A stretch of 64,000 nt of DNA from Anthocerotibacter panamensis C109. Lineage in GTDB: Bacteria > Cyanobacteriota > Cyanobacteriia > Gloeobacterales > Anthocerotibacteraceae. The notes below the pieces were generated by a model that was not told where the DNA came from, made no database searches, and worked only from the letters and a program-made list of their open reading frames with translations. The stretch lies in the NCBI RefSeq assembly GCF_018389385.1, contig NZ_CP062698.1, forward strand, positions 747,501 through 811,500, in the 5' to 3' direction. Shown piece after piece: positions 15,991 to 28,068 of this stretch (position 1 is its first letter; the number at the start of each line of letters is the position of its first letter). Position numbers and translations under genes: made by a program.

Positions 15991-16005
15991 ATTACTGGTT
16001 GGGCC
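15989..16005 (+). repeat. attC 3' half-site (GTTGGGC core)
   Basis: TAATTACTGGTTGGGCC carries the core GTTGGGC (15998-16004), a perfect GTTRRRY match, preceded by ACTG as in the arms of the intact sites at 21517 and 27598. A near-identical 17-base word recurs at 28573. The HAD gene begins 16 bases later, as expected at the 5' edge of a cassette. The partner half-site is not evident. Confidence 0.45.
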
Positions 16006-16019
16006 GCAATGGAAACACA

Positions 16020-16862
16020 ATGCACGAAATAATCGCTGTAATTTTTGACTTCGATGACACCCTTGCACCTGATACCACATCAGGTTTCATAACAAAGCAT
16101 GGCATTCATGCTGAAGAGTTCTGGCTAAAGCAGGTGAATCCGCTGTACGCTAACGATTGGGATCCGGTTCCAGCATATCTATACAAAATGATCGAGGCAG
16201 GAAAATCAGGCTTGCTCCCACTCTCCAAAAGCGAACTTGAAAAATGGGGCACTGAAGCACCATTGCATGAAGGAACTGAAACCATTTTCCGGCGGCTTCG
16301 CACTACTGTAGAGGACGTAAACCCCAAGGCTACGTTAGAATTTTATGTAATAAGTAGCGGCATTGGTGATATACTCCGTAGTACGGAAATCGCTACAGAG
16401 TTTAAAGATATTTGGGCTTCAGAGTTGCATTACAGAGAAGATGGTCTTGCTGAATTTCCAAGGAAAGTCATAAGTTTTACTGACAAAACTAGATATTTAT
16501 TTCATATCCAAAAAGGACTCATTGGAAAACTATCACGCGGCAAGCCATTGGATGTAAACCAGAAATTTGGCCTAGAAGACCTTCGCATCCCTTTTTCAAA
16601 TATGATCTTTGTGGGTGACGGCCTAACCGATGTTCCATGTTTTTCACTCCTGACTAAAGAAAAGGGAATGGCAGTCGCTGTTTATGATCGAAAACATGTT
16701 CAGAAATGGGAACGAGCTTATCAATTTATCGCTGAGAAACGAGTGTCAACACTCTATTCTGCAAACTACAGTGAAGGAAGCGACCTTTCAAATTTCTTAG
16801 TCATGGCGGTACGCAATCTTGCAGAGCGAATTGCTGTATCAAAATCAGCGTTCAGAGTATGA
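16020..16862 (+). CDS. HAD-superfamily phosphatase
   Basis: 280 residues from ATG 16020. Motif I is DFDDT (Asp10 nucleophile, Asp12 acid/base), a Ser in VISSG gives motif II, a Lys lies between, and GDGLTD near residue 200 is motif IV. A cap domain of about 90 residues follows motif I. The protein is intact. It is AT-rich compared with the flanking GC-rich genes and sits 145 bases upstream of the methyltransferase/HerA/NurA genes, so it probably belongs with them. HAD enzymes dephosphorylate small molecules or nucleic-acid ends; the substrate here is unknown. Confidence 0.82.
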   Translation: MHEIIAVIFDFDDTLAPDTTSGFITKHGIHAEEFWLKQVNPLYANDWDPVPAYLYKMIEAGKSGLLPLSKSELEKWGTEAPLHEGTETIFRRLRTTVEDVNPKATLEFYVISSGIGDILRSTEIATEFKDIWASELHYREDGLAEFPRKVISFTDKTRYLFHIQKGLIGKLSRGKPLDVNQKFGLEDLRIPFSNMIFVGDGLTDVPCFSLLTKEKGMAVAVYDRKHVQKWERAYQFIAEKRVSTLYSANYSEGSDLSNFLVMAVRNLAERIAVSKSAFRV

Positions 16863-16955
16863 GATCGGCATGACTGAAAGTAGGTGTTGGCTGTTTAGCA
16901 CGATAGTAGGAGATATGCTTGAATTTTCTAGGTTTGGAAAAGCACGTTTACAGTG

Positions 16956-16970
16956 ACTCTTTTAAAGAGT
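16956..16970. promoter_or_regulatory. Inverted repeat upstream of methyltransferase gene
   Basis: ACTCTTTTAAAGAGT is an inverted repeat with 7-base arms around a single central base, 36 bases before the GTG start of the methyltransferase. It could be an operator or part of a terminator for the HAD gene. No controller protein gene is seen beside it. Confidence 0.35.
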
Positions 16971-17006
16971 AAAATACTTTAACAGATACCCACAGGATAA
17001 GGACTA

Positions 17007-18020
17007 GTGATTCTAGCCCAGCGCACAAAATCAGGTCGATACTACGTTGGCCAAAGCGAAACAATTTTGGATTGTCGAGCATTTCGTAGTCTGCGAGGAA
17101 AAATTCAACTGATTTTAACTTCACCTCCTTTTCCATTAAATGAGAAGAAAAGCTATGGCAATATGACTGGTGATAAGTATCTTGAATGGTTTGCCAATTT
17201 AGCGCCCATATTTGCGGAGATGTTGACTGGTGATGGCTCAATCCTCATTGAGATGGGAAATGGGTGGGAACCTCAACGACCCGTCCAATCCTTGTTGCCA
17301 CTTAAGTCTTTGATGAGTTTTGTAGAAAATGAAAGAGCTGGACTTCGGTTGATTCAGCAATTTGTTTGTTATAATCCCTCTCGATTGCCTTCTCCTGCTC
17401 AATGGGTAACTGTTAACCGGATAAGAACGGTAGACAGCTTTACTAATATTTGGTGGATGGCAAAATCTGACTTTCCAAAAGCAGATAATTCAAAAGTTTT
17501 GCGGCCCTATAGCGATTCTATGATTAGACTTTTGGATAAAAAGGATTTTAATTCTGGCAAACGACCATCTGGACATGATATTAGTAGCAGTGCTTTTCTA
17601 CGAGACTGTGGTGGTTCAATTGCACATAATTTCTTTGAAGTTGAGAGCATGGACTCTAATCGTGATGTTCGCTTGCCGGATCCTTTTAATGCTTTTTCAC
17701 TATCAAATACCATCTCAAATGATTTTTTTGCGAGAACCTGTAAAGAGAGGGGAATTAAGAAGCCTCATCCTGCTCGTATGCAAATGGGGTTGGCAGCATT
17801 TTTTATTCAATATCTTACTGATCGTGGAGACTGGGTTCTCGATCCATTTGCTGGAAGTAATACAACTGGATACGCATCTGCTCGACTTGGTCGCAAATGG
17901 CTAGCGATTGATGCAAAAGAAGAATATGTTGAGCAGTCAAAAATTCGTTTTGAAGACCCCGCCTTGGTAAACTTAAAGGAGCCAACCAATGAATATCAGC
18001 AGACAGCTCACTCAAACTAA
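17007..18020 (+). CDS. DNA methyltransferase, N4-cytosine type (PvuII-like)
   Basis: 337 residues from GTG 17007 with AAGGA just upstream. The catalytic motif IV is TSPPF (38-42) near the N-terminus, and the SAM-binding motif I is DPFAGSNTT (279-287) near the C-terminus. This order defines beta-class methylases, and TSPPF plus GSNTT resembles M.PvuII, which makes N4-methylcytosine. No cognate restriction endonuclease gene adjoins it; instead the gene overlaps herA by 32 bases. It may mark self DNA for the HerA-NurA pair. The recognition sequence is unknown. Confidence 0.85.
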   Translation: MILAQRTKSGRYYVGQSETILDCRAFRSLRGKIQLILTSPPFPLNEKKSYGNMTGDKYLEWFANLAPIFAEMLTGDGSILIEMGNGWEPQRPVQSLLPLKSLMSFVENERAGLRLIQQFVCYNPSRLPSPAQWVTVNRIRTVDSFTNIWWMAKSDFPKADNSKVLRPYSDSMIRLLDKKDFNSGKRPSGHDISSSAFLRDCGGSIAHNFFEVESMDSNRDVRLPDPFNAFSLSNTISNDFFARTCKERGIKKPHPARMQMGLAAFFIQYLTDRGDWVLDPFAGSNTTGYASARLGRKWLAIDAKEEYVEQSKIRFEDPALVNLKEPTNEYQQTAHSN

Positions 18021-20139
18021 TCTCTTCAAGCGCAAGCAAGAAGGTGAAGATGTTCGATGGGACACAGGTCTTTTTGTTGGTCGCCCGTTTCGGCTAACTT
18101 ACAGTCGAGCAGAAATTTTAGTTGCTGATGCTTGGAAACAAAGAGCTAAAGGCATTCCACAAGGGTGTTTTCTTCTTGCCTATTATGATAATGAGCCGAA
18201 CGATCAGAAAAATGTTGAAGCAATTCTTCTTCGTGTAATTCAACCAACTAGATTGCCAACCGATCAGGAAGTTATTAGCAGCATGGTTGAGTACTACAAA
18301 GATGATATTCGCACAGGCACAAATCAGCGATCACAACTAGATACATTTACCCGTTATGAGTTTTCATTCAGTGGTCTGGAATGCTCAGTTCTGGGTTCTT
18401 TCTACATTGGCGAGCAAGATAAAACACGCTTCGGCGCAGATCTAGAAAATTTCTACAGCGCCCATAACTATTCCGTAATTAAACCTTCGCCTGATATTTT
18501 GAAAGCCATTGTCAACTATCGAGAAAGTGGTGCGCCTGGAGGCTCTGGCGATATCAAAATTGGGAAGGTTCGTTACAGTTCTAGCCGACGCTTTCAGCAG
18601 ACTGAAGTGGATATGCCTGTATATGTGCAAGCTCCAGACTTTGCTGGCAAACGGACAGCTTTGTTTGGTATGACGAGAACGGGTAAATCTAATACAGTGA
18701 AGAAAATTATTCAATCCTGTGTGGAGATGAGTGATAACGCTCCATTTCAGCTAGATAAAGATACTGAAAGCCCAGAGGAAGTTCTCAAACCTCTTACTGA
18801 AGATAAAAATCCTAAATACCCAATAGGACAAATTATTTTCGATATCAACGGTGAGTATGCTAATCCTAACTTGCAGGATCAAGGTACGGCAATTTTTGAT
18901 CTATATAAAGAGAAGACGGTTAGATATTCGACTGTTCCAAAAGAAGGTTTTAGAGAGATGAAGGTTAACTTTTACGGGGATATTCAAACGGGCTTTGAAC
19001 TAATTCGGTCTTATCCGGGGATTGCAACTGATAATACTAGATTTGCTAGCAACTTTAAGAGTGTTCAATTAGATCCACCTAAAAATTACGAAACAGATAA
19101 GTTTAGCTCTGAAGCTCAACGTTATGAGAGGCGCATTGCAGCATATTTTTGTTGCCTCTATCGTGCTGGGTTTCAACCTCCTAATAATTTGCGTGTACGA
19201 TTTAGCACCAATAAGGAAGTTCGGGATGCAGTCAATCAAATGCCGGGTGTTACTGTAGAGCCCAAAGAAGCGGACAAGCGAAGAGGGATTCTGGATCTTT
19301 CATTAGAACAGGCATCTACTTGGTGGGATAATCTTTGGAAGGCTTACACTCCTACATTAGGGAAAAAGCAGAAAAAAGCCTCACAATCTAGTCCTAATTC
19401 TAATGATGACGATGATCAAGGAGAATCAAAAGAATGGGCTGATGATGATTTAAAAGCACTCTTAGTAATGTTGACTCGACGTAGAGAGCCTGGTGAATCC
19501 TCCTTACTCTGTAATGGATACAGGATTCTATCTAGCATTAAAGAACAGCATACAAGCACAGTCCAAGATCCATTTGAACAGGATATTTTAAAGAATCTGA
19601 GAGAAGGAAAAATTGTGATTGTTGACCTCTCTCTGGGAGATCCAAACATTCAATCTTTATTTAGTGAGCGAATATGTCGAACCGTTTTTAACGATGCAAT
19701 CCTTCGTTTTACGAGTACACTTCCAAATAATTTCATTCAATTCTATTTTGAAGAGGCTCACAACTTGTTCCCTAAAAAAGATGATAAAGATCTTTCTCAA
19801 ATTTATAATCGATTGGCAAAAGAAGGAGCTAAGCTCAATCTTGGACTAATTTATGCAACTCAAGAGGTTAGTTCTATTAGCAGCAACATTTTAAAGGCTA
19901 CACAAAATTGGTTTATTTCTCATCTCAATAATGAAGATGAAATCAAAGAGCTTCGGAAATATTATGACTTTAGCGATTTTACTGAAAGCTTAATTCGCTT
20001 TAGTCAAGATACAGACAAAGGATTTGTTCGAATGAAGACGTACAGTAACCCATTTGTCATTCCAGTTCAGATAGATCGCTTTCCCCCTGAAAAACCTCCC
20101 ACACTTAATCTTCGAGAAAACAATGGGCTATCCAAGTAA
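17989..20139 (+). CDS. herA: HerA-like DNA translocase ATPase
   Basis: 716 residues from ATG 17989, with a strong AAAGGAG site. A HAS-barrel-like N-terminal region (to ~190) is followed by Walker A GMTRTGKS (227-234), Walker B IIFDINGEY (282-290) and the later FYFEEAHNLFP and IYATQEVSSIS motifs, all typical of HerA in the FtsK-HerA class. A charged low-complexity linker (about 465-485) is inserted. HerA hexamers drive DNA through the NurA nuclease. The gene overlaps both the methyltransferase (32 bases) and nurA (17 bases), indicating an operon. Confidence 0.92.
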   Translation: MNISRQLTQTNLFKRKQEGEDVRWDTGLFVGRPFRLTYSRAEILVADAWKQRAKGIPQGCFLLAYYDNEPNDQKNVEAILLRVIQPTRLPTDQEVISSMVEYYKDDIRTGTNQRSQLDTFTRYEFSFSGLECSVLGSFYIGEQDKTRFGADLENFYSAHNYSVIKPSPDILKAIVNYRESGAPGGSGDIKIGKVRYSSSRRFQQTEVDMPVYVQAPDFAGKRTALFGMTRTGKSNTVKKIIQSCVEMSDNAPFQLDKDTESPEEVLKPLTEDKNPKYPIGQIIFDINGEYANPNLQDQGTAIFDLYKEKTVRYSTVPKEGFREMKVNFYGDIQTGFELIRSYPGIATDNTRFASNFKSVQLDPPKNYETDKFSSEAQRYERRIAAYFCCLYRAGFQPPNNLRVRFSTNKEVRDAVNQMPGVTVEPKEADKRRGILDLSLEQASTWWDNLWKAYTPTLGKKQKKASQSSPNSNDDDDQGESKEWADDDLKALLVMLTRRREPGESSLLCNGYRILSSIKEQHTSTVQDPFEQDILKNLREGKIVIVDLSLGDPNIQSLFSERICRTVFNDAILRFTSTLPNNFIQFYFEEAHNLFPKKDDKDLSQIYNRLAKEGAKLNLGLIYATQEVSSISSNILKATQNWFISHLNNEDEIKELRKYYDFSDFTESLIRFSQDTDKGFVRMKTYSNPFVIPVQIDRFPPEKPPTLNLRENNGLSK

Positions 20140-21475
20140 AAATAATCGCCGTCCTTTTGAGGCTGCTAGCAAGGCAGCCCATCATCATATAGTTAATGAT
20201 CCTGAAGTTCAGCGATTAATGAGTAGGATTCATAAACCGCCACGAGCAGAAGAAATCCCTTTAGGAACTATAACTGTCACGTTTGAATCACCTAAAGACA
20301 ATCAAATTGAAGCAATAATTGCTGTGGATGGTGGTTATACAGAAGCCATTCTTGAGAAGGACTTTCCTTCAAGAACTATGCATTTTCTGCAATTTGGAGC
20401 TCTACTATTTAAGCAGGAAGATTTAGCGAAGCTTAACGCTTCTGCATTTATTGCGCCAGAAGATATGGCTAAGTTAAAAAATATAAATCGGCTTAAACTA
20501 GCTTTACCGACAAAAAATGTACGTTTTCAGGATGAAAACACTCTCAAAGGAAGCGTCCTAAAAGCAATTTATGAATTTTTTATAAGAAGCACATTGGCCG
20601 AAGATCAAAGCTTAATAGATACGCTTGCATGGTTTGTTTTTCGGCGATACAAACAAAATCAGAGAACGGAAGATGACAAGAGGTGGAATCTAGCTACAAA
20701 CCCTTTAAGTTCATTTGAAAATTCGATCTTACTTGTTGAGCAAAATATGGACAGAAACTACACTTTTCCTTGCCCTGAAACAGGAGGAAGGATCTATCTG
20801 ACAGATGTCTTTCGATTGCACGAAGTTATAGACGAAGATTTTGGGGCTACAGGGATAATGGGCTATTTAGTCAATGTCGTTGAACATTTAATTATTATCC
20901 ATATAATTCGCCAGCTTCTTCGTTATCAACCAGATACTCTAAAAAAAGTTTTCTTCATTAAAGATGGGCCAACAGGCTTTTTTGGGCAGACAGCTAGGAT
21001 GCACGAACCAATGCGTGATTTGATTAACTGGCTTCTAGATAAACACAACATAGTACTAGCTGGCCTTGAGAAAAGTGGAGCATTTGTAGATCATGCTCAA
21101 TCAATTCAACAAAATTTAGAACCTGGGAAGGTGCTTGTCCTAACCGACGATTATATTTATCGCTATATTCTTCCTGGTCCTGGCGATCCACATCGTCCCT
21201 ACGCTTCCACTAGCAACTATGGTCATAAAGTTATCTTCAAGGCTCGAAATGGTCAAATGTATGTTGTTTCAATTCCAGTGAGAGAGCTGAAAAAACAGCC
21301 AACAATTGATGATTTCCCTAATTTGCAGGTAATATTGTCTAACGTAGAAGCGTTGCATTGTGATATGTACGACTCAGCATTATTCCCAGTAGCTCTGGTC
21401 AATAAATTAGTTAGTTTATCAGCATATCCTAGCCAGAGGATTCTACAGAAATTTGCAAGTCATTCTACGAGTTAA
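20123..21475 (+). CDS. nurA: NurA-domain nuclease
   Basis: 450 residues. NurA metal-site motifs are visible: AVDGG with Asp69, FIKDGPT with Asp281, and GLEKSG at 314-319. A C-terminal LVNKLVSLSAYPSQ segment completes the domain. NurA is a DNA nuclease that works in complex with HerA, and in several bacteria the pair gives anti-phage defence. The start overlaps the herA end by 17 bases. An attC-like site begins 41 bases after the stop. Confidence 0.87.
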   Translation: MGYPSKNNRRPFEAASKAAHHHIVNDPEVQRLMSRIHKPPRAEEIPLGTITVTFESPKDNQIEAIIAVDGGYTEAILEKDFPSRTMHFLQFGALLFKQEDLAKLNASAFIAPEDMAKLKNINRLKLALPTKNVRFQDENTLKGSVLKAIYEFFIRSTLAEDQSLIDTLAWFVFRRYKQNQRTEDDKRWNLATNPLSSFENSILLVEQNMDRNYTFPCPETGGRIYLTDVFRLHEVIDEDFGATGIMGYLVNVVEHLIIIHIIRQLLRYQPDTLKKVFFIKDGPTGFFGQTARMHEPMRDLINWLLDKHNIVLAGLEKSGAFVDHAQSIQQNLEPGKVLVLTDDYIYRYILPGPGDPHRPYASTSNYGHKVIFKARNGQMYVVSIPVRELKKQPTIDDFPNLQVILSNVEALHCDMYDSALFPVALVNKLVSLSAYPSQRILQKFASHSTS

Positions 21476-21516: not shown

Positions 21517-21582
21517 GCCTAACCAGTCGCTTCACCTGACATCGCCCGGAATGGGCGTTGCAGGTGAGCTTGGTTGTTAGAA
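21517..21582 (+). repeat. attC-like integron recombination site
   Basis: A 66-base imperfect palindrome runs from GCCTAAC (an RYYYAAC core) to GTTAGAA (a GTTRRRY core with the last base off). Inside, CACCTGAC and GCAGGTGAG pair as L-boxes, CGCCC/GGGCG closes a short apical loop, and AACCA pairs with TGGTT next to the cores. Sequence and size match 27598-27663 almost base for base. It divides the NurA operon from the giant helicase gene. Confidence 0.78.
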
Positions 21583-21615
21583 ATTGACTCAGCATTGCGC
21601 CAAGAAGAAGGAAAG

Positions 21616-24600
21616 ATGAATTCACCTCGTGACCTGCTCAAGGGCTTGCTCGAATATATCGAAGAGCAAGCAAAAGAAATTGACCCGAAAGGTTATCGCC
21701 TCTCTGCTGCGCAAGGGTTTGTTCATCGCAATACCGACTTCGCGGAGCTGCCCGGCCTTGAGTTTGATCTTCGCCCAGAGGGCGACCACATCTGGCTACA
21801 TCTGGCGCGCCTCGAAGCCCATCGCCCCCCAAGTGCTCCCGACCTGTTCAAGGGGCTATTCAAAGTCAGCAATAACCCGTTTGGTGCGCCTCCCGCACTG
21901 GATGAAGGCCATCTAGTGACTTGGATTGCCCAGCATGAATCCAAGCCGGATCCTCAGTTGGCAAAAACTCATGACGCAAAGCTTAGGCAAGAACAGTTGA
22001 GGCAGAAAGCCAAAGCAGCCCTTCAAGAATACTTGCCTCAATGGAAAGCTTGGGCTGAGGGAGAGCGTCCGCGTCGAAAAAGCATCTCCCTTTATGGCGA
22101 TCTGTTCGCCTTGAAGCATCAGATCGAAGCAGAAGAAACAGCCAAACCACAAGAACTCGTATGGGGTATTGGCGTTGCCTCTTGGCAGATTCCGTTCGGC
22201 GAAAGCACCGTCAGCTTTGAATATCCGCTACTTACTCAAGCCGTCGAAATTTTCATCGACGAGAGAAGCATGGCACTGGAGATTCGTCCCCGATCTACTG
22301 ATACGCGAGTGGAAATGGATGCATTCGTTGCTTGCTCAGTGCCCGGTGCTGCTGATGTTGAGCGCGCCATCAAAGAACAACTCCAAAGACATAACGAGCG
22401 GCCAGTTACCCCATTTGATGCTTCGAGTTATACCGATGTCCTCAAGCTCGCCGCATCAAACTTGGATAGCAATGGCAGCTATCGAGAGGTGCTTACAACG
22501 GGAGACCCTATTCCTGCCCCAGGCACCGACTTGATAGTTGCGGATGCCTGGGTTCTACTTTCACGACCGCGCACTACTCACTATCTGACGGATGACTTAA
22601 AACGCCTGAAGGACAAGTTGCCTTCCGGTTGCGATATTCCAATTGGCCCGCTTGCCCTTGTCACCCCGCCTTCAGACAAACCAGTTGAATTCGAGACCAT
22701 TCATTTCCGGGGACTTTCAAGTCGCGGATCAAGTCACGGCAAGATAGAAGAGCTTTACTTTCCCCTGCCTTACAATGAAGAGCAGGTCACCATCATTCAA
22801 CGGCTGGAAAAAGCTGCGGGCGTGGCTGTACAAGGGCCACCAGGTACAGGCAAGACTCACACTATCGCCAATGTCATTTGTCACTACTTGGCGACTGGTA
22901 GACGGGTTCTCATCACTTCACGCGGAGAACCCGCACTTGAAGTACTACAGTCCAAAATACCAGAGGAAGTCCGCTCCTTGACCGTGGCGCTTATGGCCAG
23001 CGACCGCGAAGGTATCCGTCAATTTCAGGCATCAATCGAAGCAATTCAGCATCAGGTCTCACAGTTAAATCCTGAACAGACACGCCATGCTATCGCAACA
23101 CTGGAAGGCGCCATTGATCGTGCCCATCACGAACTTTCTTCTATTGACACACGCATTGATGCAATTGCGATTGCTCAACTTTCAGAGGTGGAAGTTGATG
23201 GCGTACTGATGCGCGCACAGGAACTTGCTGAGTTGGTTACTTCAGGATTGGAACAGCATGGCTGGTTTGATGATGACATTACACTCGCACCGGAAAATGC
23301 CCCCCCACTGACCGAGGAGGAGTCGGGCAAACTCCGTGAAGTACGACGGAAGGTCGGACAGGATTTGGTTTATGTGCAGGCCAACTACCCATCTGCTGAC
23401 TCACTTCCCACCACAACAGCAATCGCCGAATTGCACGAAGTGCTATCCAGTATGCGGACGATTGAGGCGGAGGTTGAACGAGGCGACCTGATCGATCTGA
23501 AGGCGACAACCGCCGAAGTGCTCATCGCAGCGAGGGAGCTTCTTGAATTGATCGAAGAAGCCCAGGCTTTGGCCGAGGAGTTGGAGTCTACCGATAGTGG
23601 TTGGCCCTTTGATTTGCGAATGAAATGTAGACTGCCGTCGTTTATTTCCGAGCGGCAAGCGCTGGAGTCTTTGTTTTCTGACATTGGGGTACTCATTGAG
23701 GCACGCGCTGAGTTCCTCAAGAGACCAGTGGAATTCCCCGATGCAGGATTGCGCTCCGTAAAAACTCGGGAGGCTGTTGCCCGCGCAGTGGAGACCGGCA
23801 AGCCGTTTGGATTGATTGCCCTTGGGGCGGGCGAGGCGAAAGAGCATATCGCTGCGGTTAGAGTCTCCGGGCTCTCCCCCTCGTCAAAGGAAGACTGGGC
23901 TCATGTGCAGCGGCACGTTGAGCTTGACGAAAAGGTGGTGTCTTTCGTTAGCCGGTGGAACCAGTTTGCAGATGAACTTTCCATCCCCCGCATAGAAGGT
24001 GGCATCCCTGCTTTGCGCCGAATCGAGATGGTTGCCACCATTGCGAAAAAAGCACATCGACTGGCAACAGAATTCGACGCCACATTGCCAAAGAAGGCCG
24101 AGGCTGTGTTCCGTTCGCCTCCAGCCAAAGCGTTGATGGGCGGTTCTGCCGAACTCCATAAAGTCAAGAGCCAGCTACTACGCCACCTTACCAAGGCAGA
24201 ACTATCCAAAGCAGCAACCCAACTCAGCACTTTTCAGGAAAAACTTGCGGGCAAGACGGGGCCTGTATCTATTGCGTTAAAACAGTTCGTCGAACAGCAA
24301 CTTGGATGTCCTGATATTCCTTCTGAGCGTGCCTCCGCACAATACGCAGAGTTCACGGCAGAACTGAGGCGTATTGCGTCGCTATCGGTTGATCTCACAC
24401 GAATCAAGGATTTCGCTGCCCGCATTGAACAAGCGGGCGCTCCAAAACTGGCCTCTCGTGTCCGTTCTCAACCCGTTGAAATGTCCGGCGAAGACACCGT
24501 TTTTCCTGTTGTTTGGCGGCAAGCATGGAACTGGGCTCGTATTCGAACTTACCTCGACAACATTGAGGCCCGAAACGAATTGCTTGCCCTTTCGGCCAGA

Positions 24601-26187
24601 CGCACAGACCTTGAAGGCGGTCTGTCCCGCCTCTACAAGGACTTGGTAGCCAAAGCTGCATGGTTAGCAACCAAACGCAATGCCACGCAAAAGGTACTCC
24701 AAGCTCTTGCGGGCTATGCAACTGCAATCCGCCGTATCGGACAGGGAACAGGGCCAAATGCAACACGATATCGCAGGGATGCAAGGGAGGCGATGTTGGA
24801 TGCCGCAGGCGCTGTCCCTTGCTGGATCATGAGCCACGCACGCATATCGGAGGCCATGCCGCCGGATATTGGAGCGTTCGATCTTGTAATTGTCGATGAA
24901 GCGAGCCAATCCGATCTCTGGGCACTGCCTGCCATTTTGCGCGGCAGAAAGATTCTTGTGGTGGGCGATGATAAACAGGTGTCCCCGGATGGAAGCTTTA
25001 TCGCCGGCCAGCGGATTCAGGAACTAAAGGTTCGCTTCCTTTCCGAGCAGCCTTACGGGACGGAAATGACACCGGAGAAGTCCCTCTATGATCTTGCGGC
25101 CCGCGTATTTGCTGCTGAGCAAGTCATGCTACGCGAGCATTTCCGTTGTGTCCCACCCATCATTGCTTACGCCAATCGCGTATTTTACCAAGGCGGGATT
25201 CAACCGTTACGTATTCCAAGGGCGTCAGAGCGAATTGATCCGCCGCTTGTCGATATTTACGTCACGGATGGCTTCCGTGATAGGCACGACCATAACGATT
25301 ACGAAGCTCAGGCTATCGCCGAGGAAATTTCGGCGATTCTGAAAAATGAGGCTTTTGTAGGTCGCACGATTGGTGTCGTTTCACTGTTGGGAATCGATCA
25401 AGCCAAACACATTGATTCCATCGTGCGCCAACATTGCGATGCCGCCGAATTACTTCACCGCAAGTTTGAATGCGGGGAGGCTCGCACATTCCAAGGTAGT
25501 GAACGGGATATCATGTTCCTGTCGATGGTTGTAGATAGCAAAAATTGTCGCGCACTTTCTGGTCTGAAGTTTGATCAGCGTTTCAACGTAGCGGCCAGTC
25601 GGGCACGAGATCGGATGTATTTGGTTCGCTCCGTAAGTGCGTCCGATTTGTCGGATAAAGATTTACGCCTTACTTTGCTCAGTCACTTCAACAAGCCGAT
25701 GGTGACTGACAAAGAGGAAGCAGAAGTGCTGATTGACCAATGCGAGTCTGGGTTCGAGCGGGAAGTGTTTTCCATTCTTGCATCTCGCGGGTATCGCGTT
25801 ATCCCACAAGTGAAAACTGGCGCTTATCGCATCGACATGGTTGTTGAGGGCACGGGGGATAATCGCCTAGCTATTGAGTTAGATGGTGATGAATATCACG
25901 GTCCAGACAGATGGCAGCATGACATGAACCGTCAGCGCGTTTTGGAACGGGCCGGCTGGGTATTCTGGCGTTGCTTCGCCTCCACATGGTCACGTCGTAA
26001 GGATGATGTCCTACAAGAATTACTGGCTCGCCTTGCAGCAATGGGAATTGAGCCGATGGGAGCCATAGAATATGCGCCAAGCTTGGTAGAAAAACGGACA
26101 TGGAAGCTCACGCCTGTGGAAGACAATGGACAGGCCGTTGATGAAACGCAAGCTGCGCTGGAACTCGCAATTGCAGGTGCAAAGTAG
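21616..26187 (+). CDS. SF1 (Upf1/Dna2-like) helicase fused to a DUF559/Vsr-like nuclease
   Basis: 1523 residues from ATG 21616, preceded by AAGAAGGA; the frame is open to 21574 but that overlaps the attC core. Walker A GPPGTGKT lies near residue 408. A long helical insert of about 680 residues follows, then motif II VIVDEAS (~1090), GDDKQVSP, and the C-terminal RecA motifs FQGSERDI and NVAASRARDR. Residues from ~1380 form a PD-(D/E)XK fold: FEREVF, YRIDMVV, and ELDGDEYHG (~1421). The architecture recalls defence helicase-nucleases such as Mokosh MkoC, which has a phospholipase-D nuclease instead. It is flanked by attC-like sites on both sides. Confidence 0.87.
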   Translation: MNSPRDLLKGLLEYIEEQAKEIDPKGYRLSAAQGFVHRNTDFAELPGLEFDLRPEGDHIWLHLARLEAHRPPSAPDLFKGLFKVSNNPFGAPPALDEGHLVTWIAQHESKPDPQLAKTHDAKLRQEQLRQKAKAALQEYLPQWKAWAEGERPRRKSISLYGDLFALKHQIEAEETAKPQELVWGIGVASWQIPFGESTVSFEYPLLTQAVEIFIDERSMALEIRPRSTDTRVEMDAFVACSVPGAADVERAIKEQLQRHNERPVTPFDASSYTDVLKLAASNLDSNGSYREVLTTGDPIPAPGTDLIVADAWVLLSRPRTTHYLTDDLKRLKDKLPSGCDIPIGPLALVTPPSDKPVEFETIHFRGLSSRGSSHGKIEELYFPLPYNEEQVTIIQRLEKAAGVAVQGPPGTGKTHTIANVICHYLATGRRVLITSRGEPALEVLQSKIPEEVRSLTVALMASDREGIRQFQASIEAIQHQVSQLNPEQTRHAIATLEGAIDRAHHELSSIDTRIDAIAIAQLSEVEVDGVLMRAQELAELVTSGLEQHGWFDDDITLAPENAPPLTEEESGKLREVRRKVGQDLVYVQANYPSADSLPTTTAIAELHEVLSSMRTIEAEVERGDLIDLKATTAEVLIAARELLELIEEAQALAEELESTDSGWPFDLRMKCRLPSFISERQALESLFSDIGVLIEARAEFLKRPVEFPDAGLRSVKTREAVARAVETGKPFGLIALGAGEAKEHIAAVRVSGLSPSSKEDWAHVQRHVELDEKVVSFVSRWNQFADELSIPRIEGGIPALRRIEMVATIAKKAHRLATEFDATLPKKAEAVFRSPPAKALMGGSAELHKVKSQLLRHLTKAELSKAATQLSTFQEKLAGKTGPVSIALKQFVEQQLGCPDIPSERASAQYAEFTAELRRIASLSVDLTRIKDFAARIEQAGAPKLASRVRSQPVEMSGEDTVFPVVWRQAWNWARIRTYLDNIEARNELLALSARRTDLEGGLSRLYKDLVAKAAWLATKRNATQKVLQALAGYATAIRRIGQGTGPNATRYRRDAREAMLDAAGAVPCWIMSHARISEAMPPDIGAFDLVIVDEASQSDLWALPAILRGRKILVVGDDKQVSPDGSFIAGQRIQELKVRFLSEQPYGTEMTPEKSLYDLAARVFAAEQVMLREHFRCVPPIIAYANRVFYQGGIQPLRIPRASERIDPPLVDIYVTDGFRDRHDHNDYEAQAIAEEISAILKNEAFVGRTIGVVSLLGIDQAKHIDSIVRQHCDAAELLHRKFECGEARTFQGSERDIMFLSMVVDSKNCRALSGLKFDQRFNVAASRARDRMYLVRSVSASDLSDKDLRLTLLSHFNKPMVTDKEEAEVLIDQCESGFEREVFSILASRGYRVIPQVKTGAYRIDMVVEGTGDNRLAIELDGDEYHGPDRWQHDMNRQRVLERAGWVFWRCFASTWSRRKDDVLQELLARLAAMGIEPMGAIEYAPSLVEKRTWKLTPVEDNGQAVDETQAALELAIAGAK

Positions 26188-26709: not shown

Positions 26710-27561
26710 ATGAGCCGGACAAAGTACGACCAGTTTTCTAAAGAGTTTCTAGCCGGACTCCTTGATCCCTTTGGTACGACCGCCATTGATGTCTCGGTCA
26801 GCAGTGAAGTTCGGGAAATCGATCTGCTTTTTACCCCTTTGGCTGGAACTGATCCCTCCCGTTTAGGATTATTGGGTCGAATTGCCCAAACCCCTTGCAT
26901 CATTGAGCCTTACCGGAATCCACCGGATGATGAGGACATACGAATCTGCTTAATGCGTCTGGCTATTTATGAAGGAGGGCAACGGCGCGAAGCTCGTCGA
27001 GAACAAATCACGTTACCCAAGGAAAAGATCCCCTTGGTTTGGGTAGTCGCACCAACACTGTCACCGAGCTTTTTAGAAGGCTTTGGGGCTGCGGTACGAC
27101 CAGATTGGCCTCAAGGGGTATATTTTCTGCCAGAAAGACTGAGGGCAGTATTGGTGGCAGTCCATCAATTACCTGTAGTGCCTGAAACCTTGTGGCTACG
27201 GATCTTGGGACGAGGACGGGTACAGGGTGAAGCAGTGCGTGAACTTTTGGCCCTACCCGAATCCTTGCCAGAGCGGTCACAGGTCTTGCGATTGATAAAA
27301 AACTGGCAAATTAGAGTACAACAGAATCAGGAGCCGGAGGAAGCAGAAATGGCAGTGCAATTGAGCCAAGCCTACCTAGAGTGGGAGCAAAAGACCAAAG
27401 AAGAAGGAAAACTTGAAGGGCGTGCCGAGGGAGAACAGATTGGGGCAGTGCGCGGGAAGCTGGAAGCTGTACCTCCTCTTTTGCAACGAGGTTTCGCGGT
27501 AGAGGAAATTGCCCAAATACTGGGACTAACTGTTGATCAAGTGAAGTCAGTCCAGACCTAA
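26710..27561 (+). CDS. Rpn-family (PD-(D/E)XK) nuclease-like protein
   Basis: 283 residues. The N-terminus (MSRTKYDQFSKEFLAGLLDPFG, split FGTTAIDVS) and the central PCIIEPYRNPPDDEDIRICLMRL, plus a C-terminal helix with LEGRAEGEQIGAVRGKLE, match the abundant cyanobacterial proteins often labelled Rpn recombination-promoting nuclease or FliH-like. These families are promiscuous and linked to mobile DNA. Catalytic residues are not sharply resolved here, so activity is unproven. An intact attC-like site follows 36 bases after the stop. Confidence 0.6.
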   Translation: MSRTKYDQFSKEFLAGLLDPFGTTAIDVSVSSEVREIDLLFTPLAGTDPSRLGLLGRIAQTPCIIEPYRNPPDDEDIRICLMRLAIYEGGQRREARREQITLPKEKIPLVWVVAPTLSPSFLEGFGAAVRPDWPQGVYFLPERLRAVLVAVHQLPVVPETLWLRILGRGRVQGEAVRELLALPESLPERSQVLRLIKNWQIRVQQNQEPEEAEMAVQLSQAYLEWEQKTKEEGKLEGRAEGEQIGAVRGKLEAVPPLLQRGFAVEEIAQILGLTVDQVKSVQT

Positions 27562-27597
27562 AAAACTCTATCTTCCTTGACCAATGAACTCCCAAAT

Positions 27598-27663
27598 GCC
27601 TAACCAGTCGCTTCACCTGACACCGCCCCGAAAGGGCATTGCAGGTGAGCTTGGTTGTTAGGG
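27598..27663 (+). repeat. attC-like integron recombination site
   Basis: 66-base palindrome from GCCTAAC to GTTAGGG. The central CACCTGAC/GCAGGTGAG L-boxes and CGCCC apical stem match the site at 21517 nearly exactly. The R' core carries the TAA stop codon of the inverted vapC gene. Confidence 0.8.
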
Positions 27664-28068
27664 TTCAAGCCAGTTTTCGACTTTTAGCCTTGGAATGCGG
27701 GAAAATTCCCTTATGTTAGCTGTCACGAGGATTAAGTCCAGAGCTAGGGCGTGGGAGGCGATGAGCATATCATTGGGGCCAATGGGTGTGCCGTTATTTT
27801 CTAGATAGACCCGCAGATCGGCGTAGTAGCGGTCAGCATCAACGGTGAGGGGAAAGATCTTGAGGCTAGAGAGTAACTGCTCAATTTTTGTAGAGAGAAT
27901 GGGTACATTCTTTTTTGCAGCTCCAAAACGGAGTTCACATGCAACCACAATACTGATGGCGAGGGTATCTTCTCCTTTTGTTTTGATGTGCTGCACTACG
28001 CGACCAGCGGGATGTTTGATTAAATCGGACACAATATTGGTGTCGAGTAAATAGCGGATATCTTCCAT
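27658..28068 (-). CDS. vapC: VapC-type PIN-domain toxin ribonuclease
   Basis: 136 residues. PIN catalytic acids are Asp9 in LLDTN, Glu45 in ACELRFG and Asp100 in PNDMLIA. The canonical VTxDxxEF appears as VTANIREF, so the last acidic position is relaxed. VapC toxins cleave tRNA or rRNA and are held in check by VapB, encoded just upstream with one base between. Its final codon and stop lie inside the attC core. Transcription runs against the rest of the cassette genes. Confidence 0.85.
   Translation of the reverse strand: MEDIRYLLDTNIVSDLIKHPAGRVVQHIKTKGEDTLAISIVVACELRFGAAKKNVPILSTKIEQLLSSLKIFPLTVDADRYYADLRVYLENNGTPIGPNDMLIASHALALDLILVTANIREFSRIPRLKVENWLEP

Follow-up and report, generated by a model that had tools for sequence, protein, structure and literature searches.

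A methylase-HerA-NurA gene trio related to TdpAB and its candidate role as a methylation-guarded defence system

In Thermus, a restriction system based on phosphorothioate has TdpAB as its translocase-nuclease and TdpC as its modifier. A HerA-class ATPase is also found in ICETh1 of Thermus thermophilus, where a single operon codes for the type IIG enzyme TthHB27I, a NurA-like nuclease, the HerA-class protein TdtA and an N4/N6 methylase (PMC5365140). TdtA and NurA are both required for transjugation, and the effect of the methylase is minor (PMC5365140, PMC7767461). In addition, the anti-phage systems SIR2-HerA (Nezha) and DUF4297-HerA pair a HerA-class hexamer with an effector enzyme (PMC11291478). 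The present analysis concerns a set of three genes of a cyanobacterium, coding for a methylase, a HerA-class translocase and a NurA-type nuclease. No model naming this trio was found in PADLOC (2023), NCBIfam (2026) or Pfam. The author of the earlier note on this DNA, who took four genes together, knew of no described system with exactly that makeup. No description of methylase-HerA-NurA was found in the literature searched, which takes in few subscription papers, so that an earlier description is possible, and NurA is not mentioned in two surveys of HerA/FtsK capture. The trio is thus apparently undescribed.

Composition of the locus and kinship with TdpAB

The window, that is, the whole stretch of 64,000 nucleotides that was analysed, contains the following features at the locus.

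16020-16862, + strand: HAD phosphatase, judged a neighbour of the trio (ATG start; in-frame TTG at 15999)
16947-16975, + strand: promoter-like site TTTACA-17-TAAAAT in the gap between the HAD and methylase genes, weak, from a consensus scan
17007-18020, + strand: M.PvuII-family N4-cytosine methylase, the predicted self-marking enzyme (Pfam and M.PvuII structure match)
17989-20139, + strand: HerA/FtsK-class DNA translocase, predicted to be hexameric (Pfam DUF87 and TdpA match)
20123-21475, + strand: NurA-type nuclease, TdpB-like (predicted fold and synteny with HerA)
21574-26187: SF1 helicase with a C-terminal MTES_1575 nuclease domain, the next gene after the trio

The first four open reading frames lie where the earlier note had placed them, all on the + strand. 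Its description of the block as AT-rich also agrees with the base composition (37-42% GC vs about 52-60% in both flanks), which makes a recent acquisition plausible. According to the ORF coordinates, the methylase and HerA genes overlap by 32 bases and the HerA and NurA genes by 17 bases, as had been described. The end of the HAD gene is separated from the methylase start by a gap of 144 bases, which places the HAD gene outside the overlapping set. Promoter-like sites in the region are no more numerous than expected by chance, so the site at 16947-16975 is compatible with HAD-independent transcription of the trio and could conceivably allow it. A perfect inverted repeat, ACTCTTTTAAAGAGT, lies at 16956-16970 within the span of this site. 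It was considered as a conserved operator 5' of the methylase and rejected, because it was not found 5' of six related methylases.

The first gene of the trio codes for a methylase that matches Pfam N6_N4_Mtase (E 1.3e-27) and the M.PvuII structure 1boo (E 5e-63), and its motifs are in the beta order, with TSPPF before DPFAGSNTTG. Across 61 orthologues, the mean frequency of the commonest residue in the target-recognition segment (residues 184-214) is 0.76, compared with 0.74-0.80 in the catalytic parts. This segment is therefore conserved like the catalytic parts, suggesting that the enzyme may have a single fixed methylation target, which is probably PvuII-like. The locus resembles PvuII restriction-modification in having an M.PvuII-type methylase with such a conserved segment; however, no PvuII-type endonuclease lies beside the methylase, and a translocase-nuclease pair takes the place of the restriction enzyme. 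A search of the source genome with the R.PvuII profile PF09225 gave zero matches, and control genomes gave none either.

The HerA protein matches Pfam DUF87/HerA (E 1.3e-13) and carries the Walker A motif GMTRTGKSN and the Walker B motif EEAH. Its best sequence match among solved structures is TdpA (8wet), with E 4e-24 in the profile search and E 2e-19 with the single sequence. The top Foldseek matches of its AlphaFold model are all TdpA (E 6e-22), followed by the next family at 5e-16. With VIA-align the match to TdpA (Z 20.8) is similar to those to other HerAs (up to 22.4). The NCBIfam models for anti-phage HerA proteins score 40-47 on it, against cut-offs of 800 and 850, and it is less similar to the HerAs of SIR2-HerA and DUF4297-HerA than to TdpA. 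These two systems share with the trio the principle of a HerA-class hexamer and an effector enzyme, but their partners are SIR2 or DUF4297 and they include no methylase, whereas the partner in the trio has a NurA fold.

The NurA protein has no match in Pfam, PADLOC or NCBIfam, although its homologues carry the name NurA at NCBI. Comparison of its sequence with solved structures gave nothing significant, so the predicted fold was used. In the AlphaFold model (pLDDT 85), the best fold match by both programs is TdpB (8wfd_G), with Z 19.6 over 314 residues at 12% sequence identity, and the next fold family is that of Sulfolobus (Sso) NurA (Z 13.0). All 65 homologues share residues D69, D228, E254 and H324, and 63 of them share D281; Asp69 had already been singled out in the earlier note. 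In most relatives an inserted segment forms a zinc-ribbon-like element with two CxxC motifs; in the window copy this element is degenerate.

Two independent proteins, HerA through TdpA and NurA through TdpB, thus both point to the TdpAB complex, and by sequence and predicted fold the nearest characterised relatives of the pair are the two TdpAB subunits. Like TdpABC, the trio combines a TdpA-type translocase and a TdpB-type nuclease with a modification gene alongside. The modifier differs, being an M.PvuII-family N4-cytosine methylase here and the phosphorothioate enzyme TdpC in the Tdp system. The trio proteins are also longer (716 vs 586 residues for HerA, and 450 vs 358 in the structure for NurA), most relatives of the window NurA have the inserted zinc-ribbon-like segment, and identity to the Tdp proteins is about 12-20%.

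Conservation of the trio and the proposed mechanism

Species genomes were scanned with a HerA alignment; from the 351 relatives that this gave, the best 80 were taken as loci, and they cover 14 named phyla. Among these 80, NurA follows HerA in 79, the exception being cut by a contig end, and a methylase 56-81% identical to that of the window lies directly 5' of HerA in 64; the other 16 include two loci (L031, L092) that begin at a contig end. Gaps between the genes in trio loci are mostly -8 to +30 bases. Because the order and the tight packing recur in 64 of the best 80 of the 351, the arrangement goes far past what chance would give. The same 80 loci comprise 19 from Bacteroidota, 18 from Cyanobacteriota, 11 from Pseudomonadota, 10 from Bacillota, 5 from Chloroflexota and 3 from Planctomycetota, together with loci from several candidate phyla and one from a methanogen bin. 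Within the phylum of the source genome, NurA is present in 3 of 292 genomes, exactly the three that have the methylase at 58% identity or more. The HerA subfamily was found in none of the 38 nearest relatives of the source genome, two of which have a distant partial HerA match only. No DNA match to a gammaproteobacterial copy was found in complete E. coli genomes, and a search of a plasmid collection found no Thermus relatives. Of two scans of viral contigs, the first gave no relative and the second gave one; its contig (L129, 7893-10684) carries tail genes, and the relative, a HerA at 35%, precedes a NurA that bears a two-CxxC motif.

We consider it probable that genes 17007-21475 form a restriction(-modification)-type defence system that is TdpAB-like and guarded by methylation. 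In this system, the methylase would mark host DNA by placing N4-methylcytosine at a short, fixed site that is probably PvuII-like, the hexameric HerA ring would pump double-stranded DNA into a NurA dimer, and the dimer would cut up the DNA that it receives. DNA without the mark, such as that of an entering phage or plasmid, would be degraded, and marked host DNA would be spared. The mark could be read in two ways. HerA-NurA might sense it directly, in the way proposed for TdpAB and phosphorothioate, or the methylase might recruit HerA-NurA at unmethylated sites. The data themselves show the three-gene unit, its spread, its relation to TdpAB and the swapping of methylases on a constant HerA-NurA pair; we infer the formation of a complex, the degradation, the use of methylation as a self mark and the defence role. 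The earlier note had likewise taken HerA-NurA as the destroyer of DNA and methylation as the mark of self, and this is the reading best supported by the kinship with TdpAB and by the exchange of methylases on a constant HerA-NurA pair.

More tentatively, and at somewhat less than even confidence, the trio may stand for a widespread restriction-modification class in which a TdpAB-like pump and nuclease, with no sequence-specific endonuclease, destroys DNA that lacks N4-methylcytosine at one fixed site, one effector having been wired in evolution to phosphorothioate and methyl marks. If the proposed reading is true, phosphorothioate in Thermus and base methylation in many other lineages would guard one and the same family of translocase-nuclease effectors, and the way in which a DNA pump distinguishes marked DNA from unmarked would become open to direct testing. 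A common system present in at least 14 named phyla would then have been missed by the 2023 PADLOC and current NCBIfam models.

Exchange of the methylase, mobility and competing functions

On the HerA tree there are 9 changes of methylase state, with HerA-NurA retained throughout. In the clade that holds the window, one locus (L015) has a true M.PvuII-type enzyme on the 3' side instead (M.PvuII E 1e-111), and M.PvuII-type replacement enzymes of the same kind occur in L021 and L038. Circularly permuted N4/N6 methylases are found in L042 and L089 and in the distant L006 and L007, and a type III-like Mod methylase with a Res-like protein in L016, L018 and L019. Pairwise distances of HerA and NurA are closely correlated (r 0.90), and each correlates with the methylase at 0.61-0.66. 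Together, the swapping of the methylase on a retained HerA-NurA pair and the agreement of the distances indicate that motor and nuclease are the constant core and the methylase is the exchangeable part. Such a pattern is expected if what matters is the modification and not one given protein contact. That unrelated methylases replace one another argues against a specific contact, while the conservation of the target segment argues for a fixed site. The swaps may also offer natural experiments on the mark that the effector recognises. The three loci with the Mod methylase also have, 5' of HerA, an HTH regulator, a GajB/UvrD-like helicase of ~970 aa, Mod, and the Res-like protein with a TnsA-like end; L046 has this block too, 5' of a canonical trio, and L048 has part of it.

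Several observations count against the proposed system. Five Nostocales loci (L020, L029, L030, L032, L033) have HerA-NurA with no methylase nearby, if such different methylases can serve, the reading of the mark by HerA-NurA is hard to explain, and the Thermus ICETh1 HerA, with NurA and a methylase alongside, serves DNA donation. In one alternative, HerA-NurA is a defence nuclease that follows another cue of invasion, such as DNA ends or replication state, and the methylase acts independently, for example by shielding the element from other restriction enzymes. Several loci do keep HerA-NurA with no adjacent methylase, and since the substitutes come from unrelated families, no single mark seems to be required. 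However, the orthologous methylase is the first gene of a tight set in 64 of the best 80 of 351 loci, and where a locus lacks a methylase, its genome still codes for an M.PvuII-type enzyme. Such an enzyme lies elsewhere in all six genomes without an adjacent orthologue (those of L018, L020, L029, L030, L032 and L033), and in the phylum it occurs in 31 of 292 genomes, mostly of one family. As these enzymes are frequent in the Nostocales group, this is no more than a hint that the methylase-less Nostocales may draw on such an enzyme in trans. Overall, a nuclease answering to another cue is an unlikely explanation that still deserves some weight.

The trio is mobile. In genome G056, a complete-looking type V-K CAST (L013, 5226-14970; TnsB E 3e-228, TnsC/TniB, TniQ, and Cas12k E 1e-187) has as cargo, between TniQ and Cas12k, the methylase-HerA-NurA trio together with a MerR-type regulator. 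In the temperate Vibrio phage 10N.286.55.C4_PE001 (L095, 1-5750), a more distant version of HerA and a NurA homologue adjoin the integrase, and a PD-Lambda-5_B-type Dam methylase lies on the opposite strand. Plasmid copies are cyanobacterial, Deferribacter and haloarchaeal, the cyanobacterial ones having no methylase. The phylum labels on the HerA tree need 24 changes against a minimum of 13, which fits horizontal transfer. On the Deferribacter plasmid (L006, 5126-8924), an IS200/IS605 element carrying tnpA and tnpB is inserted in herA.

The company of the trio includes other defence genes. Two co-directional genes lie directly 3' of NurA in 12 Bacteroidota loci (L056, L065, L068, L069, L080, L086, L088 and L090-L094). 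In L088 they code for Septu PtuA (E 3e-257) and PtuB (E 2e-114), and in the other 11 the pair was assigned by BLAST clustering. In these 12 loci the trio, PtuA and PtuB make up a five-gene composite. Flanking proteins include CBASS, Pycsar, DndC, AbiEii, PD-T4-6, KwaB and type I restriction-modification components, listed as raw occurrences. A DndC-like phosphorothioation gene also stands divergent from a canonical trio at a contig end (L039, 2-820).

The main rival, and the strongest specific one, is DNA donation as in ICETh1: HerA would move the cell's own DNA out or along, NurA would trim it, and the methylase would have a minor part. The tdtA operon unites the same enzyme classes in a mobile operon and needs its HerA-class and NurA-like proteins for transfer, and the fold of the HerA model is moderately similar to those of conjugative coupling proteins. 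The likeness to that operon is one of described gene content. The operon differs from the trio in its gene order, its extra type IIG restriction enzyme and its documented role in donation (PMC5365140), and its methylase is nearly dispensable for that role (PMC7767461). Against donation, the trio is spread over many phyla and no shared transfer genes adjoin it, and none of its settings, as prophage cargo by an integrase, as CAST cargo or in the company of Septu, calls for donation. We therefore regard donation as improbable.

The HAD gene and other neighbours

The earlier note had read all four genes as one system, with the HAD phosphatase acting on nucleotides or DNA ends, and had named homologous neighbourhoods without the HAD gene as one finding that would refute this. 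Such neighbourhoods are what was found: the gene is missing from all of the best 80 of 351 HerA-relative loci and from all ten whole genomes with the trio that were searched. What holds up is HerA-NurA with the methylase as a conserved, mobile and defence-like unit (64 of the best 80 of 351 loci); a system that includes HAD does not. HAD relatives occur in 9 of 292 genomes of the phylum, and only in the genome of the window does the trio occur too. The closest relatives stand alone amid housekeeping genes, near aroA or near amylase and transporter genes. For these reasons the gene was rejected as a component; the four-gene composition fails, the unit is the last three genes, and the proposed composition is corrected by removing HAD.

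Some features of the gene speak for a four-gene system. It shares the strand and the low GC content and ends 144 bases 5' of the methylase, PADLOC lists its family as a single-gene defence candidate (PDC-S34, E 2e-71 over nearly the whole protein), and one more distant relative lies inside an operon of type I restriction-modification and Shedu. The protein belongs to the HAD superfamily, with its DFDDT and GDG motifs intact. Set against its absence from related loci and the solitary position of its nearest relatives, these features leave a true four-gene system very unlikely, and the HAD gene is judged a neighbour with the look of a bystander.

Ordinary double-strand-break repair with a methylase adjacent by chance is scarcely credible, for although the trio shares HerA with NurA, and thus the enzyme classes, with archaeal and Deinococcus repair, it is sporadic (3 of 292 genomes of the phylum) and mobile, has in TdpAB a nearer relative than repair HerA-NurA and is linked to a methylase across phyla, and the mre11/rad50 linkage of the archaeal type was not seen, the neighbours being the HAD gene and the SF1 helicase-nuclease in the window and the recurrent partner elsewhere being the methylase.

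The SF1 helicase-nuclease that follows the trio in the window is PADLOC PDC-S37-like and kin to the anti-phage proteins Hhe and ProA; it was found in none of the best 80 of 351 HerA-relative loci. Further along, at 26710-28068, a 283-aa ORF resembling a recombination-promoting nuclease (no Pfam match) lies with a PIN-domain toxin-like gene on the minus strand, suggesting a small defence and toxin-antitoxin cluster.
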